IMG/VR virus record: IMGVR_UViG_3300032199_000008
Location: 1 to 38,377 of that record
Source: a virus
Reading direction: 5' to 3' (one strand)
Length of the DNA: 38,377 bases
This document shows, in pieces, positions 20,001-36,602 of the stretch. The position numbers were made by a program, and so were the translations under genes. Position 1 is the first letter of the stretch, and every line of letters starts with the position of its first letter. The notes under the pieces were generated by a model. The model was not told the origin of the DNA. It was given only the letters and a program-made list of their open reading frames with translations, and ran no database searches.

Positions 20001-20004
20001 ATAT

Positions 20005-21307: not shown

Positions 21308-21328
21308 ATCCGGGAAGGAGGTGGACAT

Positions 21329-22807
21329 ATGGACATGTCCCCTGAAGTTTTGAAAAGTGTGATGACCCCCGACTTTGCGGCTGCAATGGGCCGCGAGATC
21401 GGCAAAGCCATGGCGGCTGTGATGAAGGCATCGACCGCCAGTGGCTCCACCCATAACCTGGTCCACGGCCCTGGGTCTATGTTCGGGCAGGGGCAGGTCG
21501 GGATCGAGCCGGAAGTCATTTCGACGATGATGCACTGGCGCGGCGTGGCGGATATGCTGCCGACCGTTGGCGTGCGGACCCGCGAGCTGCTGCTGCCGTT
21601 CATCACCGGTGTAGAGCCGACCAGCTCGACCGAGCCAAGCACCGAGTGCGCGAACTGTATCTCGGGTGAGACGGAAGCCTGTCTCCAGCACTTCCCGCTG
21701 GGCAAGGTCTGCCGCCAGACGCAGACCATGACCCCCGAGCGGATCATCGAGCGGTTGAACCGGGGCGACATCGATCTGACGCTGCTCAACGATCAACTGG
21801 GCAGCGACAGCCCGTGGCATCCCGGCGACTCGTTCGCCTCCATGGGCCAGCAGGGCCTGATGCAAGTCGCCGCCGCGTGGGCGCTGATGTTCGAACTGCC
21901 CCCGCTCTTTATGGCGGCCCTGTCGCCGATGGTGTACTCGGGCAACCCGGTCAACAACCGGGGCGACGGGTACCGCGAGTTCCGCGGCCTCCAACTCCTG
22001 GTCAATACCGGGTTCCGTGACGCACTCTCGAACGTGACTTGCCCTGGCCTGGACAGCGATGTCAAAAACGCCAACTACAAGGACGTGGCAAACACCGCCG
22101 CGACCACGGTTTACCAGTTGGTCGAGATGGCCCACTACTACGTCCGCAACAACGCGGAAGGTCAGCGGTTGGCGCCGGTGCGTTTCGCCGCCGTGATGCG
22201 GCCCGAGATGTGGCAGGTGCTGTCGGGGTATGTGCCGCAGCAGGCCATCCTGAACACCATCGCCAACATGACCATCCCCAATGGCGTGACGGTCAACCTG
22301 GACGGACAGACCATCGTCAACGAGCGCAACGCCATGCGCCAGGGGCTGTACATCCCGCTGAACGGCGAGATGGTACAGGTCATCCTGGACCACGGCATCC
22401 CCGAGTTGAACAATGCCAACGACGCCCACCTGGCAGCCGGCCAGTACGCATCGGACATCTACATCCTGCCGTTGACCTACCTGGGCAACCGGCCCGCACT
22501 GCGCGTCGAGTACAAGGACTACCGGTTCATCAGTGAGGAAGTACGCGCCACCGATGACCTGATCGGCGGGCTGTACTCCTGGTCTCCCGATGGCCGGTTC
22601 TCGTGGACCTGGGTCAAGGATGGCCCGTGCTTTTTGATCCGGGCGAACATCGAGCCGCGCATCATCCTGCGCACGCCGCAACTGGCGGCCCGTATCCAAA
22701 ACATCAAGTATGTGCCGGTCCAGCACCTGCGCGAGCCTGACCCGGATTCGAGCTATTTCTTTAAGGGCGGGGTTTCTACCCGTAGCCCGGCTACTTATTA
22801 CTATTGA
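21329..22807 (+). CDS. Major capsid protein
   Basis: A 492-residue protein directly after the protease-scaffold gene, with a very strong SD (AAGGAGGTGG), as expected for the most abundant virion protein. The N-terminal ~100 residues, with a Gly/Ser linker, could be a delta-domain-like segment. A Cys-rich loop (CANC, then CLQHF and VCRQT) lies at ~108-130. The remainder, with VRFAAVMRPEMWQVL and DIYILPLTYLG, is compatible with an HK97-like fold of a divergent type. Identity comes from position, size and expression signal more than from clear motif matches. Confidence 0.75.
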   Translation: MDMSPEVLKSVMTPDFAAAMGREIGKAMAAVMKASTASGSTHNLVHGPGSMFGQGQVGIEPEVISTMMHWRGVADMLPTVGVRTRELLLPFITGVEPTSSTEPSTECANCISGETEACLQHFPLGKVCRQTQTMTPERIIERLNRGDIDLTLLNDQLGSDSPWHPGDSFASMGQQGLMQVAAAWALMFELPPLFMAALSPMVYSGNPVNNRGDGYREFRGLQLLVNTGFRDALSNVTCPGLDSDVKNANYKDVANTAATTVYQLVEMAHYYVRNNAEGQRLAPVRFAAVMRPEMWQVLSGYVPQQAILNTIANMTIPNGVTVNLDGQTIVNERNAMRQGLYIPLNGEMVQVILDHGIPELNNANDAHLAAGQYASDIYILPLTYLGNRPALRVEYKDYRFISEEVRATDDLIGGLYSWSPDGRFSWTWVKDGPCFLIRANIEPRIILRTPQLAARIQNIKYVPVQHLREPDPDSSYFFKGGVSTRSPATYYY

Positions 22808-22827
22808 GTTCAGTAGTATAAGTAGTC

Positions 22828-22846
22828 GCCATTTGCATAAAATGGC
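22828..22846 (+). terminator. Short hairpin after the capsid gene
   Basis: GCCATTT (22828-22834) pairs with AAATGGC (22840-22846) around a 5-nt loop and is followed by CCTTTGTGG. It may attenuate transcription after the capsid gene. The T-run is poor, so read-through into the endonuclease gene is likely. Confidence 0.35.
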
Positions 22847-22861
22847 CCTTTGTGGTACACT
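22833..22861 (+). promoter_or_regulatory. Possible weak promoter for the homing endonuclease
   Basis: TTGCAT (22833-22838) and TACACT (22856-22861) are spaced 17 bp apart. Both are imperfect matches to sigma-70 elements, so this is tentative. Transcription would begin near 22868, inside the left arm of the long leader hairpin. Confidence 0.2.
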
Positions 22862-22862
22862 T

Positions 22863-22930
22863 GTTCTAGTGGTCAAAGTCGCCGGGGGAGTTGGAAGCTC
22901 CCCCGGCACCAACAGAAAGGACACTAGAAC
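22863..22930 (+). promoter_or_regulatory. Nested leader hairpin abutting the homing endonuclease start codon
   Basis: GTTCTAGTG (22863-22871) is the exact reverse complement of CACTAGAAC (22922-22930), which ends immediately before ATG 22931. Inside it is a 10-bp GC stem GCCGGGGGAG (22881-22890) with CTCCCCCGGC (22898-22907). The SD-like AGAAAGGA is held between the two stems. The structure would be expected to restrict translation from long capsid-gene transcripts. Confidence 0.6.
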
Positions 22931-24058
22931 ATGGCTGGCAAGAAGTGGACTGAAGCAGAACTGGCGTACCTTAACAACCAATACGGCAAGCAAGACGCGG
23001 AGGACATCGCCCGCGCAATGGGGCGCACCAAGTCGTCAGTACAGACCAAGGCCGCCGAGCTTGGACTCAAGGACGAGCGGGTCTTGTGGTCTGACGAAGA
23101 TGTGGTGTTTCTGAGAGAAAACTACCTGACCCTGGGCGCGGACGAAGTAGCAAGGCGGTTGGGTAAGACTGTGGGTGCCGTACATGGCAAGATCCGCAAG
23201 GTAGGGGGTGGTCGCCCATCTATCGGCCCACGGGTCGAATGGACAGAAGCAGAGGACGAGTTCTTGCGGGAAAACTACCAAGGGCTGACGATAGACGAAC
23301 TAGAGCAGCATCTTGGCCGGACAAAGGGCGCGATCTATGCGCGAGCGCAACTGCTCGACGTGGTGCGCTACGTCGATCCGTTCCCATTCTTCGAGACCTG
23401 GACAGAGCAGAGCGCCTACGTCGTTGGACTGTTCGCCGCCGATGGGTGGGTAAGCAAGCGCGGGCCGGAAAGCATACGCATCGCCTTCGACGTGAAAGAG
23501 CCGGACATTTTGTATGCCCTACAAGAAGCTATCGGTTCGGGGCGTATGGGCCGCAAGGCGAGTGGGATGTACTCCTACTACATCCAAAGCACCAAGGTGT
23601 ACGAGTGGCTCTGCAACCTATTCGGGCGTGACGTGTGCCGCAAGTCCAAGACGCTCCAATGGCCGAATGTACCAACTGAGTTCATGCGGCACTTTATCCG
23701 TGGCGCAATGGACGGCGACGGCGCGCTGTTCAAGACCCGAGACAACTTGTGGTCTATCAGCTACGCAAGCGGCTCCGAGGGCTTCGTTTATGGAATGGAG
23801 AAAGCCATTTTTGACCATACGGGTATCGTGATGAACACCGGACTCAACAAGATCCACGTTTGGCACACTCGTTGTACCGGCATCAAGGCGGTTTGCTTGG
23901 CGGACTGGTTGTACAGAGATGCAACCATTGCCTTGGAGCGCAAGGCGTGGATCGCACGAGAAATGATGCAAACACGCGGCACAGCGCACAAGGGAAGCAT
24001 TACCGACAAGATGCGAGAGATGTTTCCGCACATCATCAGCGGATACCGGCTCTTGTAG
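22931..24058 (+). CDS. Free-standing LAGLIDADG homing endonuclease with three Myb/SANT-like repeats
   Basis: A 375-residue protein. The N-terminus has three tandem helical DNA-binding repeats (~5-46, 52-92, 103-143), each with W at the start, an E-rich helix and a GRTKSSV / GKTVGAV / GRTKGAI turn. A double-motif LAGLIDADG domain follows: YVVGLFAADG (163-172) and FIRGAMDGDG (255-264), with Asp at both catalytic positions. It would cut a specific DNA site and spread by recombination. The capsid gene upstream is intact, so this is an intergenic insertion, not an intron product. Confidence 0.88.
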   Translation: MAGKKWTEAELAYLNNQYGKQDAEDIARAMGRTKSSVQTKAAELGLKDERVLWSDEDVVFLRENYLTLGADEVARRLGKTVGAVHGKIRKVGGGRPSIGPRVEWTEAEDEFLRENYQGLTIDELEQHLGRTKGAIYARAQLLDVVRYVDPFPFFETWTEQSAYVVGLFAADGWVSKRGPESIRIAFDVKEPDILYALQEAIGSGRMGRKASGMYSYYIQSTKVYEWLCNLFGRDVCRKSKTLQWPNVPTEFMRHFIRGAMDGDGALFKTRDNLWSISYASGSEGFVYGMEKAIFDHTGIVMNTGLNKIHVWHTRCTGIKAVCLADWLYRDATIALERKAWIAREMMQTRGTAHKGSITDKMREMFPHIISGYRLL

Positions 24059-24068
24059 AAAGGACTGT

Positions 24069-24998
24069 ATGAACATCGTCAAAGCTCCTTTGCGGGTCTC
24101 TCTGTTCGGTGGCGGGTGTGACCTGCCGGAATACGCGGACGAATACGGCGCGACGATCCTGTCGTTCGCCCTGGACGCCGCGATCTATGTCACGTGGAAC
24201 CGGCGCCCGACCGGCGGCTGCCGGCTGACCTACAGTGAGGTAGAGGAACTGGACACCCTGCGGAATGCACGGCACGACCTGGTGCGCGCGGCGGCGGCAA
24301 CCTACGGGCTGCCCGAGCCGTGCACGCTGAGCATCGTTTCGGATATCCCGAAGGGCACCGGTCTCGGCTCGTCGTCGGCGTTGGCTGTGGCCCTGTGTGC
24401 CTTGGCTGACGCGGCGCGGCAAAGCGGTGAGGACCTGGCGACAACGGCCTATCACCTGGAGCGCACCGTCGCCAATGTCGGTTGGCAGGACCACCTTCCG
24501 GCGACGTTCGGCGGCGTGCACGTGTACCGCTACGCCCCGGACACGGCGCGGGTGACGATGTACCCCGTCCCTGAGTTTTTGCACTGGGTCATCGAGAACT
24601 ATGGGCTGCTGTTGTACACCAACCGCTCCCGGCCTGCCGCGCAGATCCTGCGCACGTGGGCCGAGCAGGTGGACACACTGCACCAGATCCGCTACGTGGC
24701 GGAAGGGGTCGCTGATGACCTGGACACCCTGGGCATGATCGACCTGGTGGAAGCCCTGCGCGAAACGTGGGAACTGAAGGCCACCATCCCCGGCGTGGTC
24801 GATGACGAACTGCGCGCACAGTATGCCGCCGCACTCAAGGCGGGCGCATTGGCGGGCAAGCTGCTGGGCGCGGGTGCGGGCGGGTGCTGGTTTTTCCTGG
24901 TACCGCCCGAGTTACGGCGGCGGGTAATCGACCGGTTGGGGATGACCGAGATCCCGTTTCAGATCTCGCCGGCGGGGGTGAGTTATGGCACGCTCTAG
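24069..24998 (+). CDS. GHMP kinase, D-glycero-D-manno-heptose-7-phosphate 1-kinase-like
   Basis: A 309-residue GHMP-fold kinase. It opens KAPLRVSLFGGGCDLPEY (5-22), the form typical of heptose kinases (HddA), and has the ATP loop PKGTGLGSSS (94-103), a GWQDHLPATFGG segment and a C-terminal GKLLGAGAGGC. HddA phosphorylates D-glycero-D-manno-heptose 7-phosphate at C1. The next gene encodes a GmhB-like phosphatase, the following enzyme of that route, which supports the assignment over fucose or mevalonate kinases. First gene of the glycan cassette, SD AGAAAGGA. The stop overlaps the next gene by 14 nt. Confidence 0.82.
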   Translation: MNIVKAPLRVSLFGGGCDLPEYADEYGATILSFALDAAIYVTWNRRPTGGCRLTYSEVEELDTLRNARHDLVRAAAATYGLPEPCTLSIVSDIPKGTGLGSSSALAVALCALADAARQSGEDLATTAYHLERTVANVGWQDHLPATFGGVHVYRYAPDTARVTMYPVPEFLHWVIENYGLLLYTNRSRPAAQILRTWAEQVDTLHQIRYVAEGVADDLDTLGMIDLVEALRETWELKATIPGVVDDELRAQYAAALKAGALAGKLLGAGAGGCWFFLVPPELRRRVIDRLGMTEIPFQISPAGVSYGTL

Positions 24999-25491
24999 GG
25001 CTGTGTTTTTGGACCGTGACGGCACCATCATCCGTGACGTGCCCAACCTGGCAGACCCGGAGCAAGTCGAACTGCTGCCCGGCGCGGCGGATCGGATACG
25101 GGCGATCAACGAGGCGGGTTGGCTGGTCATCGTCGTCACCAACCAGGCGTGCATCGGGCGCGGCGACGTGGCGGTCTCACAAGTCGAGGCCGTCCACAAG
25201 CGCATGATCCAACTGCTGAAAGACGAGGGCACGGGCATACACCACATTGTCCTGTGCCCCCACACGCCGGAACAGGCGTGCTTTTGTCGCAAGCCCGAGC
25301 CGGGGATGCTGTACGCCGTGGCGACGTTGTTCCAACTGGACCTGCGCGAGTGCCTGATGATCGGCGACGCATTGACCGACATGCAAGCGGCGAAGGCGGT
25401 CAACATGCCCCGGTTTAAGGTCAAGGACGGCTTGGGGGAGTGGGACCCGAGACAATTAGGGCACATCGCTGTGCCGGGGAGATCGGGATGA
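24985..25491 (+). CDS. GmhB-like D,D-heptose 1,7-bisphosphate 7-phosphatase (HAD)
   Basis: A 168-residue HAD phosphatase of the HisB-N/GmhB type: FLDRDGT with nucleophile D10 and D12, VTNQACIGRG (51-60), the zinc ligands C91-x-H93 and C99-x-C101 (CPHTPEQACFC), RKPEPGM with K103, and IGDALTD (127-132). It removes the 7-phosphate from heptose 1,7-bisphosphate to give heptose 1-phosphate for nucleotidylation. Length is typical. It overlaps both neighbours, indicating a coupled pathway operon. Confidence 0.86.
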   Translation: MARSRAVFLDRDGTIIRDVPNLADPEQVELLPGAADRIRAINEAGWLVIVVTNQACIGRGDVAVSQVEAVHKRMIQLLKDEGTGIHHIVLCPHTPEQACFCRKPEPGMLYAVATLFQLDLRECLMIGDALTDMQAAKAVNMPRFKVKDGLGEWDPRQLGHIAVPGRSG

Positions 25492-26654
25492 TCCGCATCG
25501 GCGATCTACAGTTGGGGACAGAGGAGCGGGCGGCGCTGCAAACGGTCATCGACTCGGGCCGCATTACCGAATGGCGCGAGGTGCGGGCATTCGAAGAAGA
25601 GTTCGCCGCGTGGGTAGGCGTGCGCCATTGTGTGGCGGTATCCAGCGGCACGGCGGCCCTGATGGTCGGCCTGGCGGCGCTGCGACTCGATCCGCGTTAC
25701 GACGTGCGGCGGGTACTCGTGCCGGCCCTGACGTTTATCGCCACCGCCAATGCGGTCACGCTGTCCGGCCTGGAACCCGCCTTCGGGGACATTACCCCCG
25801 GTCTGACGTTGGACCCGGCGGAACTACGGCGGCTGCGCTACGACGCCGTGCTGCCCGTCCACCTGTTCGGCTACCCGGCGGATATGGATGCCTTACGCGC
25901 CAATGCCTGGGCCGGGCGCAACATTCCCATCCTGGAGGATGCCTGTGAGGCCCACGGCACGACGTACCGGGGGCAGATGGCCGGAAGTATCGGCCTGTGG
26001 GGCGCGTTCTCGTTTTACGTGGCCCACACCATTCAGGCCGGCGAGTTGGGCGCGTTCGTCACCGACGATGCCGAGCTGGCGCAGATGGCCCGGCGGCTCA
26101 AGGCCCACGGGCGGCGGTGTGCGTGCCGGTTATGCACGCGCAACACAACGGGCTGCCCGGTCCTGGAGCGGGGCGATCCCGACCCGCGTTTCACGGCCAT
26201 CTATCCCGGCTGGAATTTCAAACCGATGGAGTTCCAGGCGGCATTGGCCCGCGTCCAACTGCGACACGCACAGGACAACATCGACCGGCGGCGCGAGCAC
26301 GTGGCCCGGCTGACGATGCGCCTGGCGCAAGTTGAGGACTATGTGGACTTGCCGGCCTATCACGACCACGTGGCGTATATGGCCTACCCGCTCGTGCTGC
26401 GCGTGCCGGGTATCCGTGACCGGGTGGTCGCAGAATTGGCCCGGCGGGGTGTCGAAAGCCGCCCGATGTTCGGCTGTATCCCGACGCAGCAGCCGGCCTA
26501 TGCATCCTATCGGGATAGCGGCATGTGGCCCGTGGCAGACCGGGTGGGAGCAAATGGGTTTTACGTCGGCTGTCACCAGTACCTGACGGGCGACGAAGTA
26601 GACGAGATGGCAAGGACTATCGTGGACGTGGTGAAAAGTGAGGCGCAAGCCTAG
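25488..26654 (+). CDS. DegT/DnrJ-fold PMP-dependent sugar 3-dehydrase-like protein (E1-type, [2Fe-2S])
   Basis: A 388-residue aminotransferase-fold protein (SSGTAALMVGLAAL, ~52-65; EDACEAHG, 150-157). The internal-aldimine Lys is replaced: SFYVAHTIQAGELG has H180 where aminotransferases have Lys, as in dehydrases E1 and ColD. Cysteines C153-x57-C211-x1-C213, with C223 or C216 as fourth ligand, reproduce most of the E1 (CDP-6-deoxy-hexulose 3-dehydrase) cluster pattern C-x57-C-x1-C-x7-C. So it probably removes a C3 hydroxyl from a nucleotide sugar, not transaminates. No E3-type reductase is seen nearby. ATG 25488 overlaps the previous TGA. The NDP-heptose substrate is inferred. Confidence 0.75.
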   Translation: MIRIGDLQLGTEERAALQTVIDSGRITEWREVRAFEEEFAAWVGVRHCVAVSSGTAALMVGLAALRLDPRYDVRRVLVPALTFIATANAVTLSGLEPAFGDITPGLTLDPAELRRLRYDAVLPVHLFGYPADMDALRANAWAGRNIPILEDACEAHGTTYRGQMAGSIGLWGAFSFYVAHTIQAGELGAFVTDDAELAQMARRLKAHGRRCACRLCTRNTTGCPVLERGDPDPRFTAIYPGWNFKPMEFQAALARVQLRHAQDNIDRRREHVARLTMRLAQVEDYVDLPAYHDHVAYMAYPLVLRVPGIRDRVVAELARRGVESRPMFGCIPTQQPAYASYRDSGMWPVADRVGANGFYVGCHQYLTGDEVDEMARTIVDVVKSEAQA

Positions 26655-26667
26655 AAAGGGTATGGCA

Positions 26668-27042
26668 ATGCTGTACAAGATCGTTGGACAAGACGGCGCG
26701 ACTTTGGCGAGAGTAGAGGCAGACCTGGTTCGCTGTGATGAGAATGCGATCTATCTTTACGCGGTTGGGCGTCCCAGGATGGCAGCAGATGCTGTTGCCG
26801 TGATCCCGCTCGTATCCGGCTATTTCGTGTGCGAGGCGCAAGAACAGAGCGGGGATACGGACAACTCTACCATTCGCCCCGCGCCGGGCGTAGATCCAAA
26901 AAAGGGCGGCATTATGGATTGTGGTGAGGACGGTACTATTGTCTGGGACGAAGTGAGGCCATTGGCAACCCACGAGGTCCGGCACGATAGCACCGGTAGC
27001 GACAACGTGAACCGCTTTAATTGTTACGAGGCGAACCAATGA
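26668..27042 (+). CDS. Hypothetical protein within the glycan cassette
   Basis: A 124-residue protein that I do not recognise. The first half is strand-rich (MLYKIVGQDGATLARVEADL) and the second polar (VDPKKGGIMDCGEDGTI). ATG 26668 has AAAGG 8 nt upstream; ATG 26662 is an alternative. It is AT-richer than its neighbours and interrupts the sugar genes, so it may be a later insertion. The stop overlaps the epimerase start. Confidence 0.55.
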   Translation: MLYKIVGQDGATLARVEADLVRCDENAIYLYAVGRPRMAADAVAVIPLVSGYFVCEAQEQSGDTDNSTIRPAPGVDPKKGGIMDCGEDGTIVWDEVRPLATHEVRHDSTGSDNVNRFNCYEANQ

Positions 27043-28022
27043 CCACCTGTAACTGCGAGCACTGCGCCTGTTACTGGCGTGGCAAGAACGTCGTCGTCAC
27101 CGGCGGACGGGGGATGGTCGGTTCGTTCCTGGTGGACAACCTGGTCGGCAAAGGCGCACGCGTCACCGTCATGGACACCGGGGTGCGGGGCCGAAACCAC
27201 AACCCCCTGGCCCATTATGTGGACACGCGGCTGGCGGACGCCGGGCACCAGGGCAACTGTGGCGCGGCCTTTCGCAATGCCGACGTGGTATTCAACCTGG
27301 CGGCGGCGGTTGGCGGGGTCTACCACAACCTGGCCCACCAGGCCGAGCAGTATGCCGAGAATATGCGCCTGCAAACCGCCCCGGTCCTGGCGGCGGTCGA
27401 GATGGGCGTGCCGGTCTTTGTCCAGGTATCCAGCGTGTGCGTGTACGCGACGGGCTACAACAACCCGGCCCTGGAGGAACACGGGCACGAGGGCGAGCCG
27501 GAAGCCGCCAATGCCGGGTACGCCTGGGCCAAGCGCATGGGCGAACGGCTGTGCCATTGGGCATTTGAGCCGACACAGACCCGCTACGTCATCGTGCGCC
27601 CGACCAACATTTACGGGCCGCGTGACTATTTCGACGACCGGGCACACGTTATCCCGGCACTCATTCGCAAGTTCGAGACGCAGGATCACGTGCAGGTGTA
27701 CGGCGGGCCACAGACGCGTGAGTTCATTTACGCGCCCGACGTAGCGGCGGGCATGATCGCGGCGGCGGAACACGGCCTGCGCGGCGACATCATCAACCTG
27801 GGCACCGGCGGCGACACACAGACCACCATCGCCCACCTGGTAGACGCGATCCGCAAGTGGACGCTGAGCCGGGCGACGGTTGAATTTGTGGACACCCGCC
27901 CGACCGGCGACGCACACCGCCGCACCGATAGCGCCCGCGCCTGGGCATTGGGTTGGCGGCATACCGTCGGCCTGGACGAAGGCATCATGCGCACCGTGGC
28001 CTGGTACCGGGAGCAGCAATGA
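27039..28022 (+). CDS. NAD-dependent epimerase/dehydratase (extended SDR) for nucleotide sugar
   Basis: A 327-residue extended SDR with VVVTGGRGMVGSFL (NAD-binding G-x2-G-x2-G, 18-31), VSSVCVY (130-136), the catalytic Y161-x3-K165 (YAWAKRMGE), RPTNIYGPRDYF and a C-terminal YGGPQTREFIY. Such enzymes epimerise, dehydrate or reduce NDP-sugars; GDP-fucose synthase-like and heptose-modifying forms look alike. Unusually, 11 residues before the fold carry C4-x-C6-x2-C9-x-C11, a possible metal site not usual for SDRs. ATG 27039 overlaps the previous TGA; an earlier in-frame start at 27021 is less likely. Confidence 0.82.
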   Translation: MTTCNCEHCACYWRGKNVVVTGGRGMVGSFLVDNLVGKGARVTVMDTGVRGRNHNPLAHYVDTRLADAGHQGNCGAAFRNADVVFNLAAAVGGVYHNLAHQAEQYAENMRLQTAPVLAAVEMGVPVFVQVSSVCVYATGYNNPALEEHGHEGEPEAANAGYAWAKRMGERLCHWAFEPTQTRYVIVRPTNIYGPRDYFDDRAHVIPALIRKFETQDHVQVYGGPQTREFIYAPDVAAGMIAAAEHGLRGDIINLGTGGDTQTTIAHLVDAIRKWTLSRATVEFVDTRPTGDAHRRTDSARAWALGWRHTVGLDEGIMRTVAWYREQQ

Positions 28023-28447
28023 CCGGCCCCATCGTCGGCTTTGTGTGTGGCGCGTTTGACTGCCTGCATCCGGGGCACGTGCTGATGTTGGCGGACGCGG
28101 CGGGTCAATGCGACTACCTGGTGGTCGGCCTACACGTCGATCCCAGCGTGGAGCGGCCCGACAAGCACGCGCCGGTCCAGACGGTAGACGAGAGGATGGT
28201 GCTCCTCCAGGCCATAAAGTGGGTGGGGCGGGTGGTCGTCTACCGCACCGAGCAAGACCTGGCGGACCTATTGAACGAGCTGCGGCCCGACGTGCGGATC
28301 ATCGGTTCCGACTGGCGGGGCAAGGCGATCACCGCGCCGGATGCATGTGGGCGCATCTACTGGCACGAACGGGGCCACACGTGGTCAAGCAGCGAGCTGC
28401 GGCGGCGGGTGTATGAGGCTGAAAGGAAAGCGCGAAATGGACAGTGA
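28019..28447 (+). CDS. TagD/HldE-type nucleotidyltransferase (cytidylyltransferase-like)
   Basis: A 142-residue enzyme of the cytidylyltransferase fold: GAFDCLHPGH (11-20) with the H-x-G-H nucleotide site, IIGSDWRGK and the closing WSSSELRRR (122-130), equivalent to the ISST-x-R motif. It joins a nucleotide to a phosphorylated sugar or alcohol. With a heptose kinase and phosphatase in the same operon, heptose 1-phosphate is the likely partner. TagD-like sequence and the E1-like dehydrase both favour CDP over ADP or GDP, but this is inference. ATG 28019 overlaps the previous TGA. Confidence 0.8.
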   Translation: MTGPIVGFVCGAFDCLHPGHVLMLADAAGQCDYLVVGLHVDPSVERPDKHAPVQTVDERMVLLQAIKWVGRVVVYRTEQDLADLLNELRPDVRIIGSDWRGKAITAPDACGRIYWHERGHTWSSSELRRRVYEAERKARNGQ

Positions 28448-28694
28448 AAACGAGACGGTGGCTTATTGGCTGTCCCTGTTGTTCAAGGGGATCTCGTCTT
28501 TCGGGCTAATAGCGGTGCTATGGAAAGTTACCGATCCAGATGAGATGATAAAGTGGATCTTTGTGCTCTATTTTCTGACCGTGATCGCTTGGTCCTGCAT
28601 GAATGCCCACGCAACAGTCCTGGGAGATCGGCTGAAACAACAGGCGCGACGGGAAAGGCGGGCACGGTGGGAGAAGGCGATACACGATGGATAA
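28437..28694 (+). CDS. Small two-TM membrane protein
   Basis: An 85-residue protein with two hydrophobic segments (LLFKGISSFGLIAVLW, ~14-29; MIKWIFVLYFLTVIAW, ~37-52) and a very basic tail (RLKQQARRERRARW). ATG 28437 lies behind AAAGGA and overlaps the preceding gene; its end overlaps the first FkbM gene by 8 nt. It may anchor or regulate a membrane step of glycan assembly. No family is recognised. Confidence 0.58.
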   Translation: MDSENETVAYWLSLLFKGISSFGLIAVLWKVTDPDEMIKWIFVLYFLTVIAWSCMNAHATVLGDRLKQQARRERRARWEKAIHDG

Positions 28695-29244
28695 TGACCC
28701 GGTTCCCGACGGCTTGACGGGCGGCATCGTCATCGAGGCGGGCGCGTATGAGGGCGCGTGGGCAGCCAAGGCGGCGGAACGGGGTTGCCTGGTCTACGCC
28801 TTCGAACCCGCGTCGCGGGCCTATGCCATCGCCAAGGTACGCCTGGCGGGGCGGCCCAACGCGCATCTGTACCCGTTGGCCCTGGGCGGCGGGTACCACG
28901 TGGCGGCACTCCACGACTGCCAGCGCGACGGGGCGACGTGGCTCCCGGCGGACGGGCCGAGCGAGCCGGTCCAGGTCGTGGACGTGTCGTTGGTCGTGAG
29001 CCTGTTGGGCCACGTGGACCTGATGCACCTGAACGCTGAGGGCGGCGAGGTGGACATCTTAGAGCGGCTGGTCGAAACCGGGCAGATCCGCGACGTGGGG
29101 GCCGTGATGGTCCAGTGGCACCCACGCCCCGAGACGAACGAACGGATCGCGGCATTGGAAACAGCCTTGCGGCGGACACACGTCAAGCTGCCGCTCTATC
29201 ATTGCTGGGGTTACTGGCAGAGGAAAGCGGTGGGCAATGAGTGA
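28687..29244 (+). CDS. FkbM-like methyltransferase 1
   Basis: A 185-residue SAM-fold protein: IVIEAGAYEGAWA (SAM loop), FEPASRAYAIAK with the acidic strand-2 end, then VDLMHLNAEGGEVDIL, the FkbM signature strand. FkbM-family enzymes methylate hydroxyl groups, often on sugars. It partly overlaps both neighbours and is followed by a second FkbM-like copy, suggesting two O-methylations of the glycan. Acceptor unknown. Confidence 0.72.
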   Translation: MDNDPVPDGLTGGIVIEAGAYEGAWAAKAAERGCLVYAFEPASRAYAIAKVRLAGRPNAHLYPLALGGGYHVAALHDCQRDGATWLPADGPSEPVQVVDVSLVVSLLGHVDLMHLNAEGGEVDILERLVETGQIRDVGAVMVQWHPRPETNERIAALETALRRTHVKLPLYHCWGYWQRKAVGNE

Positions 29245-29719
29245 GTTGTTCGTTGACATCGGCGCGGGGGACGGTGAGCGCGCGGCAGGCCTGGCACGGA
29301 TGGGCCACATCGTCCACGCTTTCGAGCCGTGTACCGCAATGCGCGATCTGGCCTACCGGGCGCTGCGCGGGCTGCCCGGCGTGACCCTGATGCCCTACGC
29401 CATCGGCGGCAACGACCGGCAGGCGACATTGTACCGCTGCGATGGAGAGGACGCCAACCTGTACACCCCCGGCGAGCCACACGAGGGCGTGACCGTGGTC
29501 AGTATGAACCACTGGTTTGTGTACGCCCGCATTGCCGAGATCAATACGCTCTACCTGGACTGCAACGGCAGCGAGGTCGAGATCCTGGAGCAAATGGTGA
29601 AATGTGGCCGGATGCGACAGGTGAAATACATCAGCGTTTGGTGGGCCGGCGACGAACGGCCCGAGCTATTGGAGCAGACACACCGCAAAAGCGCGGGCGC
29701 CTGGGAAAGGATCGAGTGA
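29237..29719 (+). CDS. FkbM-like methyltransferase 2
   Basis: A 160-residue protein with LFVDIGAGDGERAA at the SAM site, HAFEPC and LYLDCNGSEVEILEQM, the same layout as the gene before it but divergent, so an old tandem duplication or separate acquisition. It is shorter than classical FkbM (~200-250) but keeps the core. TGATG coupling to the following glycosyltransferase. Likely O-methylation of a sugar residue. Confidence 0.7.
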   Translation: MSELFVDIGAGDGERAAGLARMGHIVHAFEPCTAMRDLAYRALRGLPGVTLMPYAIGGNDRQATLYRCDGEDANLYTPGEPHEGVTVVSMNHWFVYARIAEINTLYLDCNGSEVEILEQMVKCGRMRQVKYISVWWAGDERPELLEQTHRKSAGAWERIE

Positions 29720-30498
29720 TGGACTGGCCTACAGTGTGGGTCTTGTTTGCGACGTACAAACGAACGGCGGCGGCATTGGCGACGGTCGAGAGCCTGGAGC
29801 GATACCTCGTCTATCCCAACCTACATTTTCACATCTGCGACGACGGCAGCCGCGAGGCCGATGACGGCTCAGGACAGGGGCATGTCGATGTCCTGGCTGA
29901 GCGGTTCGCCCAATTCCACCCCGAGGTCACCTGGCACGAGATGGACACCCCGCCCGGCGCATTCAACACCGGCGGTAACATCAACCGGGGCATCCGTGTG
30001 GCGGCAGAGAATGGGGCGGACATTCACATGCTGGTATTCGATGACTGGGCCTTGTTCCGCGAGTTGGACATCCGCCCGATGGCCGATCTGCTGGACACCA
30101 ACCCGGCGGTTGGGTTTATCCGTCTCTCCTACCACGTGCCGGGGAATAACGGCTGCGTGGTGGACTATCACTGTCCCCGCTCCGGTGGCAGTTATATGTG
30201 GTATCGGCTGATCCGCGAATGGTCGCTGCGCAACCCATGGGGTCCATCGGACTCCTACATGATCAGCACGCAGCCCTACATCGCACACCGGCGCTTTTTC
30301 GACGCCTACGGCTGGCACCCCGAGCACGTCAACCCCGGCCTGGCCGAGGTCGGCCTGGGGGCGCAGTATAACCACAGTCCCCTGGGCGAAAGCGGCCCGC
30401 AAGTCCTGTTCCCCATCGGGCCGGGCGTGGTCCACGCACCGTGGGCGCACCTCGTGGGGCGGGCGCACGACTATCTGGCGCAGTGTGGGCCAGCGTGA
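29719..30498 (+). CDS. GT2-like (GT-A) glycosyltransferase
   Basis: A 259-residue protein with a GT-A start (WVLFATYKRTAAALATVESL), ICDDGSRE (~40-47) for the nucleotide-sugar region, and MLVFDDWALF (~108-117) supplying the D-x-D-equivalent acidic pair. It would transfer a sugar to a growing chain. GC-rich and in tight TGATG linkage with both neighbours, it belongs to the cassette. The acceptor and donor cannot be read from sequence. Confidence 0.7.
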   Translation: MDWPTVWVLFATYKRTAAALATVESLERYLVYPNLHFHICDDGSREADDGSGQGHVDVLAERFAQFHPEVTWHEMDTPPGAFNTGGNINRGIRVAAENGADIHMLVFDDWALFRELDIRPMADLLDTNPAVGFIRLSYHVPGNNGCVVDYHCPRSGGSYMWYRLIREWSLRNPWGPSDSYMISTQPYIAHRRFFDAYGWHPEHVNPGLAEVGLGAQYNHSPLGESGPQVLFPIGPGVVHAPWAHLVGRAHDYLAQCGPA

Positions 30499-31208
30499 TG
30501 ACTCAATACCTGATCTATCAAGGGGAACGGGGCGGCTCGTTCACCGTCAACAGCCGGGCGCATCCCGGTCTCAAATTGCGCGTGACGCCGGACTTGCCGT
30601 TCGGCATAGATACGGGAGACGAATGGATCGCCGCCATGCCCGGCTTTTTTGCTCTAACGGCGAGCGACTGGCGCCCACAAACCAAGCGCCTGCCGGGGAC
30701 AGACGAGAGTTACTGTTCCCGCTACGAGGGTGCATTCCTGGAGGGGTTGGTTTCGACCTGCCCCGACCCGGCGCGCGTGGTCGAGATCGGCACCGGCAAG
30801 GGCAACAGCCTGCTACACATCCTGTACGGGTTGGCCTTGCACCGGGACGTGAGCGTGTGGAGCGTAGACCTGTTGGAATGTGCCGACACACGCCGCTACG
30901 TGGACGGCGCGGGGGTACTGCCGGGACGATACACGTACCTGACCGGCGACTCGTGCGACCTGGCGACAGAGATCGACGATCCGCTTGACCTGGTGTACGT
31001 GGACGGGGCGCACGACGACGCGGGTGTGCGGCGGGATATCCTGGCCTGGCGGGGCAACGTCAAGCGCGGCGGTGTGATGGCCTTTCACGACTATGGCGAT
31101 CCACGGCATGAGGTCACGGCGGCCATTGACGAACTGATGACCGATGGGTGGCGGCAGGTCGGGCTGGTCGGGCACGTGATCGCATTCGAGAGGATGGGCG
31201 ATGCCTGA
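30498..31208 (+). CDS. Class I SAM methyltransferase with an N-terminal phage-type beta module
   Basis: A 236-residue protein. Residues ~3-52 (IYQGERGGSFTVNS, then LRVTPDLPF) form a small beta-rich module strikingly like one at the C-terminus of the giant glycosyltransferase (YEGPQSGSFTVNS, then YRVQPGQPF). Residues ~70-236 are a Methyltransf_24-like domain: VVEIGTGKGNSLL (94-106), SVDLLE, DLVYVDGAHDDAGVRRDI and GGVMAFHDYG. It probably methylates sugar or a related small molecule. ATG 30498 overlaps the previous stop. Confidence 0.78.
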   Translation: MTQYLIYQGERGGSFTVNSRAHPGLKLRVTPDLPFGIDTGDEWIAAMPGFFALTASDWRPQTKRLPGTDESYCSRYEGAFLEGLVSTCPDPARVVEIGTGKGNSLLHILYGLALHRDVSVWSVDLLECADTRRYVDGAGVLPGRYTYLTGDSCDLATEIDDPLDLVYVDGAHDDAGVRRDILAWRGNVKRGGVMAFHDYGDPRHEVTAAIDELMTDGWRQVGLVGHVIAFERMGDA

Positions 31209-31644
31209 CTATCTGCAACTGCTGAACGACCACGGCATGATCCTGGGCACATGGGACCAGACAAAGGTCCATGTCTCGCCTCAGTGGTTTTGGGACCGGC
31301 GGATCGACCTGATAGACTTCCGGGGCGACCTGCGCTTTTTCGAGCCGAACTCGATCACGTTCGGCTTTCGGATCAAGGTGCTCACCGCGTCACACGACAT
31401 GAGCGCCGGGACGGTCGGCCCGATGGCGATCAAGCGAGTATGGGTACATGGGCCGGTGTTCGTCGGGTCGGGGGCGCTGCTCTACAACTGCGAGCTGATG
31501 CCCCGCAGCGTCGTGGCCTGTGGGGCCGTGGTGCGCAATATGACGGTCCAGTCAGACACCATGGTCGAGGGCAACCCGGCGCGGGTGGTCAAGCGATACG
31601 TCAACGGTCAATGGCAACGAGTAGAAAGGCAGTGCGATGAGTGA
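31201..31644 (+). CDS. Left-handed beta-helix (hexapeptide) acyltransferase
   Basis: A 147-residue protein of the maltose/galactoside O-acetyltransferase (WbbJ-like) type: TASHDMSAGT with the catalytic His-Asp region, then hexapeptide turns (VWVHGPVFVGSGALLYNCEL, VVACGAVVRNMTV) and MVEGNPARVVKRY at the end. It would O- or N-acetylate the sugar using acetyl-CoA. It is shorter than the 180-200 typical but complete in motifs. Overlaps neighbours by 8 nt on both sides. Confidence 0.8.
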   Translation: MPDYLQLLNDHGMILGTWDQTKVHVSPQWFWDRRIDLIDFRGDLRFFEPNSITFGFRIKVLTASHDMSAGTVGPMAIKRVWVHGPVFVGSGALLYNCELMPRSVVACGAVVRNMTVQSDTMVEGNPARVVKRYVNGQWQRVERQCDE

Positions 31645-32221
31645 GGACTATGCCAGCCGGGAGTGGTTCGAAAGCCTATCCTGGCAGCACCAATGGATCG
31701 AGAAAATGGCCGGCTGGTGGATCGGCGAGTTCGGCAAGCCGCGCAGCGTCGTGGACTATGGCGCGGGCGACGGCTGGTGGTGCAAAGCATTTCACGACGT
31801 AGGCAGCACAGTATGGGCGGTCGAATTGCACGAGATCGCACGCGAGTTCATCCCGCCACAGGTACAATTCGTGCAGCATGACCTGACGCTGCCGCTCGAA
31901 ATTGTCCAGCGGCTGGACCTGGTGATCTGCCTGGAGGTAGCCGAGCATATACCCGAGCGGTATGCCGACATTCTGTGCCAAACGTTGGCGGCATCTACCG
32001 GGCAGCACCTGCTCTTCAGCGCCGCCGGGCCTGGGCAGTCGGGGACGGGACACGTCAACCTCAAGCCACAGGAATGGTGGCGCGAGCGGCTATCCCGGCA
32101 AGGCATCGAGTTTTCGCCGTTCAAAACGGGCAAGACGCGGCAAGCATTCGAGCACATCGTCAATGAGTGTTTCGAGTTCCTACCGCGCAACGTCCAGGTG
32201 TACGCGAGGGTGAAGGGGTGA
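31637..32221 (+). CDS. Class I SAM-dependent methyltransferase
   Basis: A 194-residue Methyltransf_23-like protein: SVVDYGAGDGWWCKAF (SAM loop), VWAVELHE, LVICLEVAEHIPERYAD (motif after strand 4) and a HVNLKPQEWW segment typical of glycan-cluster methyltransferases. It completes four methyltransferases in the cassette. Coupled to both neighbours; the stop is overlapped by the GTG of the next gene. Target unknown. Confidence 0.78.
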   Translation: MSEDYASREWFESLSWQHQWIEKMAGWWIGEFGKPRSVVDYGAGDGWWCKAFHDVGSTVWAVELHEIAREFIPPQVQFVQHDLTLPLEIVQRLDLVICLEVAEHIPERYADILCQTLAASTGQHLLFSAAGPGQSGTGHVNLKPQEWWRERLSRQGIEFSPFKTGKTRQAFEHIVNECFEFLPRNVQVYARVKG

Positions 32222-35133
32222 AAAAAGCATCGATGAAACTCTACATCAACCCTTCCCCTTGTGACTATGCCGAGGACGGGCACGGATCGGGCGGTATCTG
32301 GCGCGTCGTGTGCGCACAGGGGCGGTGGCTGCCTGAATATGGCATCGAGATCGTAGACAACCCCGACGACGCCGACGTGGTGAACGTCCACGCGGGAATG
32401 GTGGTCGATACCGGCAAGCCGTTGGTACAAAGCTGTCACGGGTATTACTGGACCGGCGACGCGATGGCCTGGGGGCCGGAAGCGTGGGGCTGGAACAACG
32501 CCGTCATCGAGGCATCCCGCCGCGCCCATCGGATCATCGTCCCCAGTGAGTGGGTGGCGGTTCCCATTCGCCGGGATATGCGCTGCCAGCCGGTGGTCAT
32601 TCCCCATGGCATCGACGGCGACGAGTTCGAACCGCTGGCAGAACACGGCGACTATGTGCTGTGGGCCAAGCCACGGGTGGACGTGGTATCCGACCCGCGC
32701 CCGGTCAACGAGTTGGCCATGCTGGCGCCCGACGTGGCGTTTCGCACCACCTACGGACGTGCGACGCAGAACGTAACCGTCATCGGCGCCCAGCCGCACG
32801 CGACGTTCCGGCAGACCCTGGCCCACGCGGCGGTGTACCTGGCGACGGCCCGCGAGACGGGCGACATTGCCAGCCGTGAGGCGATGGCCTACGGCGTGCC
32901 GGTGTTGGGCTGGGACTGGGGCGGAACGGGCGAACTGGTGCGCCACCGGGAGACCGGCTACCTGGCCCGCGTGGGGGACTATGAGGACCTGCTGGATGGG
33001 CTGCGCTACTGCCTCCACAACCGGGATCGGTTGGGAGAGGCGGCACGGGCGGACGTGCTGGCCCGTTTCCAATGGCGCGACCTGATGGGCCAATACGCGG
33101 CGGTGTACCGCGACGTGCTGGCGGCGGATGACTACCCGGTGGACGTGTCGGTAGTCATCCCCACGTTCAACTATGCGCGGTTCTTGCCCGAGTGCCTGGA
33201 GAGTGTGCGTGCGTCACAGTTTGCGGGCACGGTTGAGATCGTCGTCGTAGACGACTGCTCGACAGACGAGACACCCGCCGCGCTGAGTCATTTCGACGGG
33301 TTGAACGTCATCCGCCATCCTGAAAACCGGGGCCTACCGGCGGCATTGAACACCGGGCATGCGGCGGCGCGGGGGCGTTACATCGTCAACCTCGACGCCG
33401 ACAACACCCTGGAGCCGGGGGCCTTGCAGGTGCTCTATGACGCCATGCAGGCCCGCCCCTGGGTAGACGTGGGCACCGGGTACTATCGCATTATGGGCAC
33501 CGACCGGGTGCATGGCGGGCCGGTGGACCCGCGCCGGCAGTTGGACCACCAGAACCAGGTACCGTCTACGTGCATCATGCGCGCCCGCTCGATGCGCCGG
33601 TTGGGCGGCTACCGGGTCCGCCAGCGCAAAAACGAGGACGCCGAGTTGTGGTGCAGGGCATTGTCCGCCGGGCTGCGTGTCGAGAACGTGACCACCGAGA
33701 TCGTCTTTAACTACCGCTGGCACGGGCAGAACAAAAGCGCCTTGGAGGGCGGAGAGGATGAGCCGGACGGGCCGCTCAGTTGGACCTTTTACTACCCCTG
33801 GCGGGTGCGGCCCGAGATCACGCCGTTCGCCCAAACCGGCATGCCGGAACGTGGATCGTGGGCGGTGCGCTCCTACGACCGGCCCCACGTGGCGGTGATC
33901 ATCCCTTGCGGCCCCGGCCATGATCGTTACCTGATGGACGCCCTGGACAGCGTGGCCGGGCAGACGTTCCCTAACCTGGAGTGTATCGTCGCCAACGATA
34001 CCGGCGCGCCGCTTGACGTGGCAGCGATGGGCCACCCCTGGGTGCGCGTCGTGGAATGTGGGGCACACAACGCCGCCATCGCCCGCAATACGGCCATCGC
34101 CGCCGCCCACGCGCCGCTCATTGTGCCATTGGACGCCGACGACATGCTCTATCCCGGCACGGTGGGCCGTTATTACCAGGCATGGCTGGACAACCCCGAC
34201 AACGTGGTCTATGCCGACTGTGACATCGAGGACAAGCCGGGCCAGCGCCACAACTACGACTCGGGGCCGTGGACGTGGGAGCACATCCGCCGCGAGGCCA
34301 TTTACCAGGACACGGTGCTGTACCCGAAAAGTTGGTGGCGCGCCGTGGGTGGCTACCCTGTCGGGCAGCACCGCGAGATGTGGGAGGACTGGCTGTTCGC
34401 CGTGATGCTGGCTATCCTGGGCAAAGGAGCGACGTACATTCGCGGCAAGCCGTGGGGGGTGTATCGCCACTGGACCTCGTTGGCGAGCGGGCAGAGCAAA
34501 AACGACGGGGACTCGGCGGACTATAACACCCCGGCCTACCGGGAAAAATATCAGCACCTGCTAGACTGGATCGCAGAGAGGATACCGATGTGTAGAGCGT
34601 GTGGCAAAGGCAAAGGCGTGACCGTAACGGACAAGATGACCCTGGTTGCGGCGGCGATGACCGGTGACGACGTGACGGTGGTGTACGAAGGCCCACAGTC
34701 CGGCTCGTTTACCGTCAACTCGCTGGCTGTGATGGGGCGAAAATACAGAGTACAGCCGGGCCAGCCGTTCGTCGTTCCGGCGGGCGACTGGGCGCTGCGG
34801 TTTTCCAGGCTGGGCGACTTTCGCCAGGTGTTGGACGAGGAAATGGCGCCGGAACACGAAGCGCTGCCACAAGAGCCGGTCACCGTCGCCCCGGTCGAAC
34901 CGCTGCCTGTGCCGCCCCCGGTGGTAGCCGAGCAGCCCAAGCCCGAACCCAAGCCCGAGCCGGCGCTGGACACGCTCGATCTGCCGGCGACGATCCTGGG
35001 CAAACTGGCGGCGGCGGGGTTCACCGTGGCCGAACTGCGGTCTGACGTGTTGGCCGGCGGCGCCAAGGTGCGGGCCATTCCCGGCCTGGGCAAAGCGTCC
35101 CTGGCGCGCATCAAAGAGGCCATCCTTGGCTAA
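32218..35133 (+). CDS. Giant multi-domain glycosyltransferase (GT4-GT2-GT2) with C-terminal phage module and helix-hairpin-helix
   Basis: A 971-residue protein. Residues ~1-300: GT4/GT-B domain (PHGIDGDEFEPL; ETGDIASREAMAYG, the E-x7-E region). ~305-540: GT2 domain (VSVVIPTFNYARFLPEC; VNLDADNTL D-x-D). ~555-785: second GT2 domain (VAVIIPCGPGHDRYL; VPLDADDML). ~791-971: MCRACGKGKG Cys start, beta module (YEGPQSGSFTVNS), Pro/Glu-rich linker and helix-hairpin-helix (IPGLGKASLARIKEAI). The first three could build a three-sugar unit; the last part resembles small phage head-neck proteins. GTG 32218 overlaps the previous TGA; ATG 32233 is an alternative. No frameshift or stop interrupts the fusion. 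Confidence 0.82.
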   Translation: MKKASMKLYINPSPCDYAEDGHGSGGIWRVVCAQGRWLPEYGIEIVDNPDDADVVNVHAGMVVDTGKPLVQSCHGYYWTGDAMAWGPEAWGWNNAVIEASRRAHRIIVPSEWVAVPIRRDMRCQPVVIPHGIDGDEFEPLAEHGDYVLWAKPRVDVVSDPRPVNELAMLAPDVAFRTTYGRATQNVTVIGAQPHATFRQTLAHAAVYLATARETGDIASREAMAYGVPVLGWDWGGTGELVRHRETGYLARVGDYEDLLDGLRYCLHNRDRLGEAARADVLARFQWRDLMGQYAAVYRDVLAADDYPVDVSVVIPTFNYARFLPECLESVRASQFAGTVEIVVVDDCSTDETPAALSHFDGLNVIRHPENRGLPAALNTGHAAARGRYIVNLDADNTLEPGALQVLYDAMQARPWVDVGTGYYRIMGTDRVHGGPVDPRRQLDHQNQVPSTCIMRARSMRRLGGYRVRQRKNEDAELWCRALSAGLRVENVTTEIVFNYRWHGQNKSALEGGEDEPDGPLSWTFYYPWRVRPEITPFAQTGMPERGSWAVRSYDRPHVAVIIPCGPGHDRYLMDALDSVAGQTFPNLECIVANDTGAPLDVAAMGHPWVRVVECGAHNAAIARNTAIAAAHAPLIVPLDADDMLYPGTVGRYYQAWLDNPDNVVYADCDIEDKPGQRHNYDSGPWTWEHIRREAIYQDTVLYPKSWWRAVGGYPVGQHREMWEDWLFAVMLAILGKGATYIRGKPWGVYRHWTSLASGQSKNDGDSADYNTPAYREKYQHLLDWIAERIPMCRACGKGKGVTVTDKMTLVAAAMTGDDVTVVYEGPQSGSFTVNSLAVMGRKYRVQPGQPFVVPAGDWALRFSRLGDFRQVLDEEMAPEHEALPQEPVTVAPVEPLPVPPPVVAEQPKPEPKPEPALDTLDLPATILGKLAAAGFTVAELRSDVLAGGAKVRAIPGLGKASLARIKEAILG
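34588..35133 (+). CDS. Nested phage structural-type module (internal start within the giant glycosyltransferase)
   Basis: In-frame ATG 34588 is preceded 5 nt upstream by AGAGAGGA and begins MCRACGKGKG, which looks like a true protein start. The 181-residue product holds the beta module, an acidic Pro-rich linker and the C-terminal helix-hairpin-helix. Phages often carry a small protein like this between capsid and connector genes, so this may be the ancestral gene joined to the glycosyltransferases. Separate translation is inferred. Confidence 0.45.
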   Translation: MCRACGKGKGVTVTDKMTLVAAAMTGDDVTVVYEGPQSGSFTVNSLAVMGRKYRVQPGQPFVVPAGDWALRFSRLGDFRQVLDEEMAPEHEALPQEPVTVAPVEPLPVPPPVVAEQPKPEPKPEPALDTLDLPATILGKLAAAGFTVAELRSDVLAGGAKVRAIPGLGKASLARIKEAILG

Positions 35134-35449
35134 CCTGCTGTGTGTCCTGGCGGCCCTGGCCTGTTGGCGGATCACGTCGCTACTGTACCGCGAGCACTGG
35201 CTGGACGGGTTGCGCGAGTGGTGCGGTGTGGAGCACGACGACAACGGCCCGGCGGTGTACCGGGGCTGGCTGGCACAGGTATTCGAGTGTTTTTGGTGTC
35301 TGTCGCTGATCGTGGCCCTGCCGGTTGCGGCGGGCGTGACGTGGGCGGGCGGGTTTCGTTGGTGGTTTGGGGTGCTTTTGTGGCCCGCATTATCGGCGGC
35401 GGCGATCTGGCTAGAGACGCGGACGGGGCATTTTCAGACCCGTCAATGA
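35126..35449 (+). CDS. DUF1360-like small membrane protein
   Basis: A 107-residue protein starting at TTG 35126, overlapping the end of the giant gene, with AGAGG upstream. It shows LACWRITSLLYRE near the N-terminus, CFWCLSLIVALPVA (~54-67) and a C-terminal TM segment, matching the DUF1360 layout of two or three TM helices with a C-x-W-C motif. Such genes are frequent near phage neck genes. The role is unknown. Confidence 0.65.
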   Translation: MANLLCVLAALACWRITSLLYREHWLDGLREWCGVEHDDNGPAVYRGWLAQVFECFWCLSLIVALPVAAGVTWAGGFRWWFGVLLWPALSAAAIWLETRTGHFQTRQ

Positions 35450-35455: not shown

Positions 35456-36580
35456 ATGGCACGATCAAAAAGCGGTTCGCCCTATTTCAGCCTGGACATG
35501 TATGCCGAGTGGTTCAACCTCCCGACCTGTGCCTTCAATGGCGTAGAGAACGCGAGCGAGACCGTCGGCGGCTGTGACCACATTTGGTCCCAGTGGGAAC
35601 GGGACATGCTGGCCCGCGCCCTGGCCCGCGCCGAGAACACACTCGCCAACCAGGTCAAGTTTTACTATGGCGAGCGGTTCTTGACCGACGCCGACCTGCC
35701 GTGGACTGACCCAACGCAGCTCAAGTACCACTATGTCACCGACGGCGGGGCGCTTGTCCAGACGACGATCACCCCGGTGGCGAGCGACTTTACCACCGAC
35801 CCGGCGACGATCACCATCGCCCAGGCCAGCCTGCCATCGGGCACGGACGAACTCAAGATCCTGGAAACAGCCTACGACCTGGAGATCCACCCCGACCGGA
35901 TAGACGAGTCGGGTGCAAACTATATCGTGTATATCAGTCAGTGCAAACTGGTCGAATGGGACAACATCCGCAGCCAAACCACAGGCGCGCCGGTTGAGTA
36001 CGACGCGGCGTTTCCCGGTGCGACGTGGTTGAAACTCGCGGATCTGTCCATCTATCGGGAGACGTGCAGCGATAGCGACCAGGCGACGATCACCTTTGGG
36101 CCGTCGTGTGCCTGTGGCCTGTGTGGCACGGCGGGCGCCGGTTCCGAGCATACTGGCGTGGTGTATGTACAGGACACCGATATCTCGCGTGTCCGTGTGC
36201 AACTCGCGGACTATGACAGTACGACCGGAACATGGTCCTGCTCGTACCCCGAGCTGTGGGGCTGTTACGACGGCAGCAAGGTGCAAGTTCACTACAAGGC
36301 GGGCACGACGGCAGTACCGGGATACGACGCGGCGATCCTGGCGCTGGCACACACCTATATCGTCGTGGAGCCGTGCGGGTGCTCCCTGTTTCGGCAGTGG
36401 GTACAGCGCGATCAACGAGTCCCGCCCACGCTCACCGCCGAGCGCATCAACTGCCCGTTTGGTGAGGCAGACGGCGCGTGGCAGGCGTGGCAGTGGTGCG
36501 AGACCAACCGCCACGGCATTGCCATCCTGGCGGGCGAGAGCAACAGTTCGTGGCATCAATTCAAGAGCTGGCTCCTGTAG
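35456..36580 (+). CDS. Head-tail connector-like protein with a large Cys-rich insertion
   Basis: A 374-residue protein. The N-terminal part has WERDMLARALARAENTLAN and YYGERFL, as in phage connector/adaptor proteins with paired helices; the C-terminus resumes with LTAERINCPFGEADGAWQAW. Between them lie ~230 strand-rich residues with Cys pairs (CACGLC, CSCSYPELWGC, CGCSLF), suggesting a disulfide- or metal-stabilised decoration. Ordinary connectors are 100-200 residues. Location after capsid and before the tail gene supports the call. Confidence 0.55.
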   Translation: MARSKSGSPYFSLDMYAEWFNLPTCAFNGVENASETVGGCDHIWSQWERDMLARALARAENTLANQVKFYYGERFLTDADLPWTDPTQLKYHYVTDGGALVQTTITPVASDFTTDPATITIAQASLPSGTDELKILETAYDLEIHPDRIDESGANYIVYISQCKLVEWDNIRSQTTGAPVEYDAAFPGATWLKLADLSIYRETCSDSDQATITFGPSCACGLCGTAGAGSEHTGVVYVQDTDISRVRVQLADYDSTTGTWSCSYPELWGCYDGSKVQVHYKAGTTAVPGYDAAILALAHTYIVVEPCGCSLFRQWVQRDQRVPPTLTAERINCPFGEADGAWQAWQWCETNRHGIAILAGESNSSWHQFKSWLL

Positions 36581-36602
36581 GGGGCCGAAGGAGGCATGAC
36601 GC

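Follow-up and report, generated by a model that had tools for sequence, protein, structure and literature searches.

Why would a phage keep genes for making, decorating and transferring a sugar directly behind its capsid gene? In phages, glycosylated virions are known from a small number of mycobacteriophages, whose particles are protected from antibodies in this way. The locus considered here lies in the partial genome of an uncultured tailed phage, the 38,377-nucleotide (nt) virus record IMGVR_UViG_3300032199_000008, and this whole stretch is called the window below. The late genes of the window are on the + strand, and among them is a cassette of 14 genes (24069-35133, all +) between a homing endonuclease gene and a gene of the phrog_781 family. 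With a probability of about two in three, the cassette would supply and transfer the sugar in a virion-glycosylation module that is lineage-wide and belongs to the morphogenesis operon.

A Glycosyltransferase Inherited with the Capsid Gene

The last gene of the cassette encodes a glycosyltransferase (GT) with three catalytic domains, one of family GT4 and two of family GT2 (Table 1). The catalytic motifs are intact in all three. The glutamates of the GT4 E-x7-E motif and the DxD and ED motifs of the first GT2 domain are invariant in 40 of 40 aligned members, and the motifs of the second GT2 domain are almost invariant across the same alignment.

Scans of IMG/VR with three queries (the E1 enzyme of the cassette, the triple GT and the capsid protein) returned 28 distinct contigs with a triple GT gene, longer than 700 amino acids (aa), behind the capsid gene. 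The two genes are -64 to 9,322 nt apart, the median being 3.5 kb, and 0-13 genes on the same strand separate them; the window, at 9.4 kb including the endonuclease, is at the long end. At the short end are minimal slots in which the GT lies within about 60 nt of the capsid gene (L047, L049) or the two open reading frames (ORFs) overlap (L094). When records were retrieved by capsid similarity only, the GT was present in 18 of 24, one of the 18 being a metagenome-assembled genome (MAG) with the GT on a different contig of the bin, and the other six records end 0-4.5 kb past the capsid gene. Every record that extends sufficiently past the capsid gene thus has the GT. In some relatives (L077, L078), the triple GT is split into two genes, GT4 and GT2-GT2.

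The slot behind the capsid gene is retained in about 30 related contigs, but the genes in it are variable. They include Methyltransf_24 enzymes, dehydrases of the type with an active-site histidine, short-chain dehydrogenases/reductases (SDRs), sulfotransferases, FdtA-type enzymes, GT10, FkbM, PIG-L and a formyltransferase, among others. Also common in the slots is a family of about 240 aa with an invariant-looking “LEDYW” motif (L086 11465-12184 and 39 other ORFs), which has no Pfam or PHROG match and is perhaps a GT-A-type transferase. The GT2-like protein of the window was considered as a member of this family and dropped, since the hhalign probability was only 3.7%.

The GT and the capsid protein also diverge in step when compared pair by pair (Spearman 0.71, n = 31; none of 500 permutations reached this value), and the portal (0.79) and the conserved protein g35456 (0.69) follow the capsid protein in the same manner. 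The sugar genes do not track the capsid (E1 0.23, SDR 0.04), and the Methyltransf_24 (0.37) and LEDYW (0.22) families track it weakly. The triple GT behaves as a core gene of the structural module, inherited with the virion genes. The original prediction had described the cassette as inserted, much like a moron; that wording does not hold, and it is more accurate to speak of an accessory slot, present across the lineage, that precedes a core glycosyltransferase.

About 50 residues C-terminal of the last GT2 domain match the N terminus of the Methyltransf_24 protein of the window with a score of 99, compared to a top score of 57 in 2,000 shuffles. The same domain is C-terminal in nearly all aligned GTs of the family and stands alone in two ORFs of 74-77 aa in one relative (L081 10622-10855 and 10855-11079). 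One could speculate that it may tether the enzymes to a common partner, although this is a guess.

Layout and Integrity of the Cassette

Between the capsid gene and the phrog_781 gene lie only the LAGLIDADG endonuclease gene and the cassette. The 14 genes are spaced by -14 to +7 nt, the last of them overlaps the phrog_781 gene by 8 nt, and the set is read as a single translationally coupled run. The original prediction was right about the coordinates and the shared direction. The compositional border is not sharp, since the cassette has a G+C content of 0.646, compared with 0.633 for the head block and 0.611 for all non-cassette DNA of the window.

Two other contigs, L002 and L003, come from the same sample series; they match positions 20577-27983 (99.9% identity) and 11329-28347 (99.99%), respectively, and both carry the upstream junction of the cassette. 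A third relative, G003 (locus L007), is a 68,190-nt contig from another sample that is probably a complete circular map because its ends overlap by 30 nt; the capsid gene is at one end of the contig and the cassette at the other. Its order is kinase, phosphatase, E1, SDR, FkbM, nucleotidyltransferase, FkbM, GT2-like, two Methyltransf_24, an extra FkbM-like gene, Methyltransf_23, a GmhA-like SIS gene, triple GT, phrog_781, g35456 and the beta-propeller gene. Most of its proteins are 50-75% identical to those of the window, but identity is only about 31-36% for the phrog_781 protein and for the first of the FkbM proteins. Misassembly of the cassette is unlikely, given that L002 and L003 carry the upstream junction and G003 repeats the order; relatives had been suggested as the test of this point, and they speak against misassembled host DNA. 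The reading of the region as host DNA, or as a recent chance insert in the phage contig, is close to refuted: the sugar genes do have bacterial relatives and vary between phages, but the junction is found in independent contigs, the same cassette is at the same place in a 68-kb genome from another sample, the G+C content has no sharp break and the slot is lineage-wide.

A Probable Pathway for a Modified Heptose

What sugar could the cassette supply? Profile searches of Pfam, NCBIfam and PHROGs, together with matches in PDB, place a kinase, a phosphatase and a nucleotidyltransferase of heptose type in the cassette, a set suited to producing a nucleotide-activated heptose. The kinase scores 95 bits against NCBIfam HddA (equivalog cut-off 600) and the phosphatase 150 bits against GmhB (cut-off 178), so the heptose functions that had been assigned to the two enzymes stand at the level of the family and fall short at the level of the equivalog. 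The heptose reading is strengthened by the cassette of G003, which includes the GmhA-like gene (SIS_2 above cut-off, gmhA 40 bits).

The DegT-family protein of the cassette has a histidine, His180, in place of the active-site lysine, as do its counterparts in G003 and most relatives. Its cysteines are arranged as C153-X57-C211-X1-C213-X9-C223. The iron-sulfur cysteine motif of E1/RfbH enzymes is C-X57-C-X1-C-X7-C, and the window enzyme has X9 as its last spacing. The histidine and the cysteine set are more in line with a dehydrase of the E1/RfbH type than with an aminotransferase. Judged from these genes, a heptose that has been modified and methylated is the probable sugar. The product could plausibly be a deoxy-heptose, by analogy with Campylobacter jejuni, in which a C4,6-dehydratase and a pyridoxal phosphate (PLP)–dependent C3-dehydratase convert GDP-heptose to 3,6-dideoxy-heptoses (PMC10440746). 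Most of the gene content that had been read from motifs was borne out by family searches. It is weak for the acyltransferase, for which there are matches in PDB only and which we consider probable, and for the single GT2-like protein, for which searches of Pfam families and PDB gave no supporting match.

How the Module Might Work

In the proposed scheme, the kinase, phosphatase and nucleotidyltransferase would make the activated heptose, which the SDR and the E1-type dehydrase would then modify, while the four methyltransferases and the probable acyltransferase would decorate it. Working in the cytoplasm, the triple GT would assemble a short oligosaccharide straight onto a protein of the virion. 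As acceptor, the capsid protein is the leading candidate, and the proteins encoded at 35456-38147 come next. As sugar genes are swapped between phages, the outer glycan of the particle would change and the transferase would stay. A stepwise cytoplasmic reaction of this kind, with a virion protein as acceptor, agrees with how the genes are ordered and coupled, with a GT that stays constant and with sugar genes that are exchanged. Whether glycosylation of the capsid is a core trait of the lineage, with a universal capsid-linked triple GT and exchanged rare-sugar cassettes (deoxyheptoses, methylated or sulfated sugars), is an evenly balanced question.

Several points weigh against virion glycosylation by this cassette. 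The acceptor protein and the glycan are predictions from the gene content, and the linkage and co-divergence of GT and capsid could come from shared inheritance in a late operon with no functional link. The kinase, phosphatase and nucleotidyltransferase are all below their equivalog cut-offs. No GmhA isomerase is among the cassette genes of the window, and neither an E3 reductase partner for E1 nor a separate 4,6-dehydratase was recognised there. The window also encodes a transferase of the TAGT family, which is of a DNA-glycosylating type. Lastly, the 37 related records that were searched for marker families are mostly fragments, so absences from them are not proof.

Of the two targets that the original prediction offered, the virion and the host surface, the former is favoured. 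The alternative, in which the cassette rewrites the surface glycan of the host during infection or lysogeny and brings about superinfection exclusion or serotype conversion, is unlikely. The GT2 domains are GtrB-like or exopolysaccharide-transferase-like at family level, heptose, methyl and acyl decorations are typical of bacterial surface glycans, and hydrophobic proteins are encoded at 15222-15998 and in the cassette itself (the second small ORF). However, GtrA (PF04138), the Bac_transf initiating transferase (PF02397) and the Polysacc_synt flippase (PF01943) were found in 0 of the 37 related records, while 7, 9 and 13 control genomes were positive, respectively. The host-surface option is disfavoured because this lipid-carrier machinery was not found. 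In addition, the cassette is inside the late operon, and its GT co-diverges with the capsid protein.

It is quite improbable that the cassette makes glycans and attaches them to phage DNA as a hypermodification against restriction. Glycosyltransferases of DNA-hypermodifying phages are known (work cited in PMC12619734), and the TAGT gene would suit such a role. Nonetheless, no base-hydroxylating enzyme of the kind used in DNA glycosylation systems turned up: the thymidylate synthase family (hydroxymethylases) was found in none of the 37 records and neither was TET (TET/JBP type) above the cut-off (no control genome was positive for TET, which makes it the weaker test). The TAGT gene has no match in any other fetched member of the lineage, whereas the triple GT is constant.

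Comparison with Known Systems

If the cassette does serve to glycosylate virions, its closest parallel in phages is the glycosylation of capsids or tail tubes by phage GTs in mycobacteriophages Che8, Corndog and Myrna (Freeman et al. 2023, as cited in PMC12363180 and PMC12619734). Both involve phage-encoded GTs, and the proposed target here is likewise the capsid or another virion protein. The present lineage differs in its three-domain GT, in the fixed place of this gene 3′ of the capsid gene and in a phage-borne sugar-nucleotide pathway. The defining feature of the mycobacteriophage systems is the glycan on the particle; here it is predicted from the genes, and we claim no membership.

The chlorovirus PBCV-1 glycosylates its capsid protein Vp54 autonomously (PMC4691112). 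Like the window, it encodes sugar-nucleotide enzymes, multi-domain GTs and methylation, but it is a eukaryotic nucleocytoplasmic large DNA virus with another capsid, and no homology is claimed. The C. jejuni pathway (PMC10440746) resembles the cassette in that an activated heptose is followed by an SDR and a PLP-type C3-dehydratase. It differs in serving a bacterial capsule, in its GDP-linked sugar, in a ColD-like dehydratase that lacks the cysteine cluster and in a separate 4,6-dehydratase. Another phage, Cr30 of Caulobacter, carries a D,D-heptose 7-phosphate kinase of the same GHMP family (25.5% identity), although it is a larger phage (156 kb).

The significance of the module is that it would be inherited and capsid-linked, with sugar pathways that can be exchanged, in phages of the environment, for which selection by antibodies is hardly the explanation. 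If this is true, the particles themselves would vary much as serotypes do. The purpose of a sugar coat on the phage head would become testable by setting phages that have nothing but the GT in the slot against phages whose slots are full, and the family offers multi-domain GTs and rare-sugar enzymes.

Neighboring Genes and the Wider Lineage

Table 1. Features of the window and of related contigs discussed in the text.
Feature	Coordinates	Strand	Basis or remark
TAGT-family transferase (PF20691, TET-associated glycosyltransferase)	11638-12492		Pfam match
Major capsid protein, HK97 fold; upstream anchor	21329..22807	+	AlphaFold model and PDB fold search
LAGLIDADG homing endonuclease	22931..24058	+	PF14528 above cut-off
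GHMP kinase, HddA-like (heptose 7-phosphate kinase type)	24069..24998	+	Pfam above cut-off; NCBIfam; PDB heptose kinases
HAD phosphatase, GmhB-like	24985..25491	+	NCBIfam
DegT-family enzyme, predicted E1/RfbH-type dehydrase	25488..26654	+	His180 for Lys, Cys cluster; nearest RfbH/PseC
Small ORF	26662..27042	+	No Pfam match
Extended SDR, nearest GDP-fucose synthase	27039..28022	+	Family searches
Cytidylyltransferase-like nucleotidyltransferase, RfaE domain II type	28019..28447	+	Pfam, NCBIfam, PHROGs; also nearest phrog_7878
Small ORF, hydrophobic by eye	28437..28694	+	No Pfam/PHROG match
FkbM-family methyltransferase 1	28687..29244	+	NCBIfam fkbM above cut-off, Pfam slightly under
FkbM-family methyltransferase 2	29237..29719	+	Pfam above cut-off
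GT2-like protein, motif only	29719..30498	+	75% identity in G003
Methyltransf_24 methyltransferase, N-terminal “GSFTVNS” domain	30498..31208	+	
Probable hexapeptide acyltransferase, weak	31201..31644	+	PDB matches up to 1.6e-4
Methyltransf_23 methyltransferase	31637..32221	+	
GT4-GT2-GT2 glycosyltransferase, 971 aa; C-terminal “GSFTVNS” domain; helix-hairpin-helix-like C terminus by eye	32218..35133	+	
phrog_781 protein, downstream anchor	35126..35449	+	PHROG; gene order conserved in relatives
Conserved protein g35456	35456..36580	+	No Pfam/PHROG match; co-diverges with capsid protein
Conserved protein, N-terminal beta domain and YCF48-type beta-propeller	36603..38147	+	
Homing-endonuclease-type gene near capsid gene, L032	6908-8053	-	
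Homing-endonuclease-type gene near capsid gene, L084	10057-10866	-	
Homing-endonuclease-type gene near capsid gene, L087	14083-14850		

The upstream anchor is confirmed as the capsid protein by its predicted structure: the AlphaFold model (mean confidence, pLDDT, 78.8) has HK97-fold shells as its top 50 PDB matches, nearly all of them phage capsids. The capsid gene with a homing endonuclease was thus correctly foreseen. The endonuclease is a separate insertion, since G003 has none 3′ of its capsid gene. Homing-endonuclease-type genes recur at this position in several members of the lineage, in both orientations. A pattern scan with the capsid protein was given up because the 29-member alignment is too diverse.

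On the other side of the cassette, the genes had been expected to encode connector and tail proteins. This was not confirmed: family searches for a connector or tail tube were uninformative, and in a fold search of the protein starting at 36603 only its beta-propeller was matched. The architecture of this protein is kept lineage-wide directly 3′ of the slot, and it is perhaps a decorated tail protein.

In the literature collection that was searched, no paper on this phage lineage or its slot came up, and among 50,697 phage records of INPHARED there was no relative of the capsid protein (two queries) or of the triple GT. The capsid protein matches three MAG contigs only, two of Anaerolineae type and one of Desulfuromonadales. 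The idea of reading the host from these contigs as prophages was set aside, as they could come from free phages that ended up in the bin of the MAG. In 301 Chloroflexota genomes, the same Anaerolineae MAG alone matched the capsid protein, and in 400 Chloroflexota genomes the protospacer-like matches listed are short similarities of coding type only and of no use for naming a host.

His-type DegT homologues without the cysteine cluster are found on other large phage contigs (L013, L015, L016, L019-L026, L029, L030, L033), with SDRs alongside and a GHMP kinase in some. The minimal slots L047 and L049 are two capsid-GT modules on one 143-kb contig (IMGVR_UViG_3300031566_000001), possibly two phages joined in assembly. 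Within the window, the TAGT gene adjoins a ParB-like gene (judged by eye), with no TET gene in the window. The protein at 15222-15998, encoded between terminase and portal, is a polytopic membrane protein with no Pfam or PHROG match that is GT87-like by eye. Further upstream, the products of 3249-4061 and 9529-10968 resemble, again by eye, a phosphoadenosine phosphosulfate (PAPS) reductase and a beta-helix protein of the pectate-lyase type, respectively.

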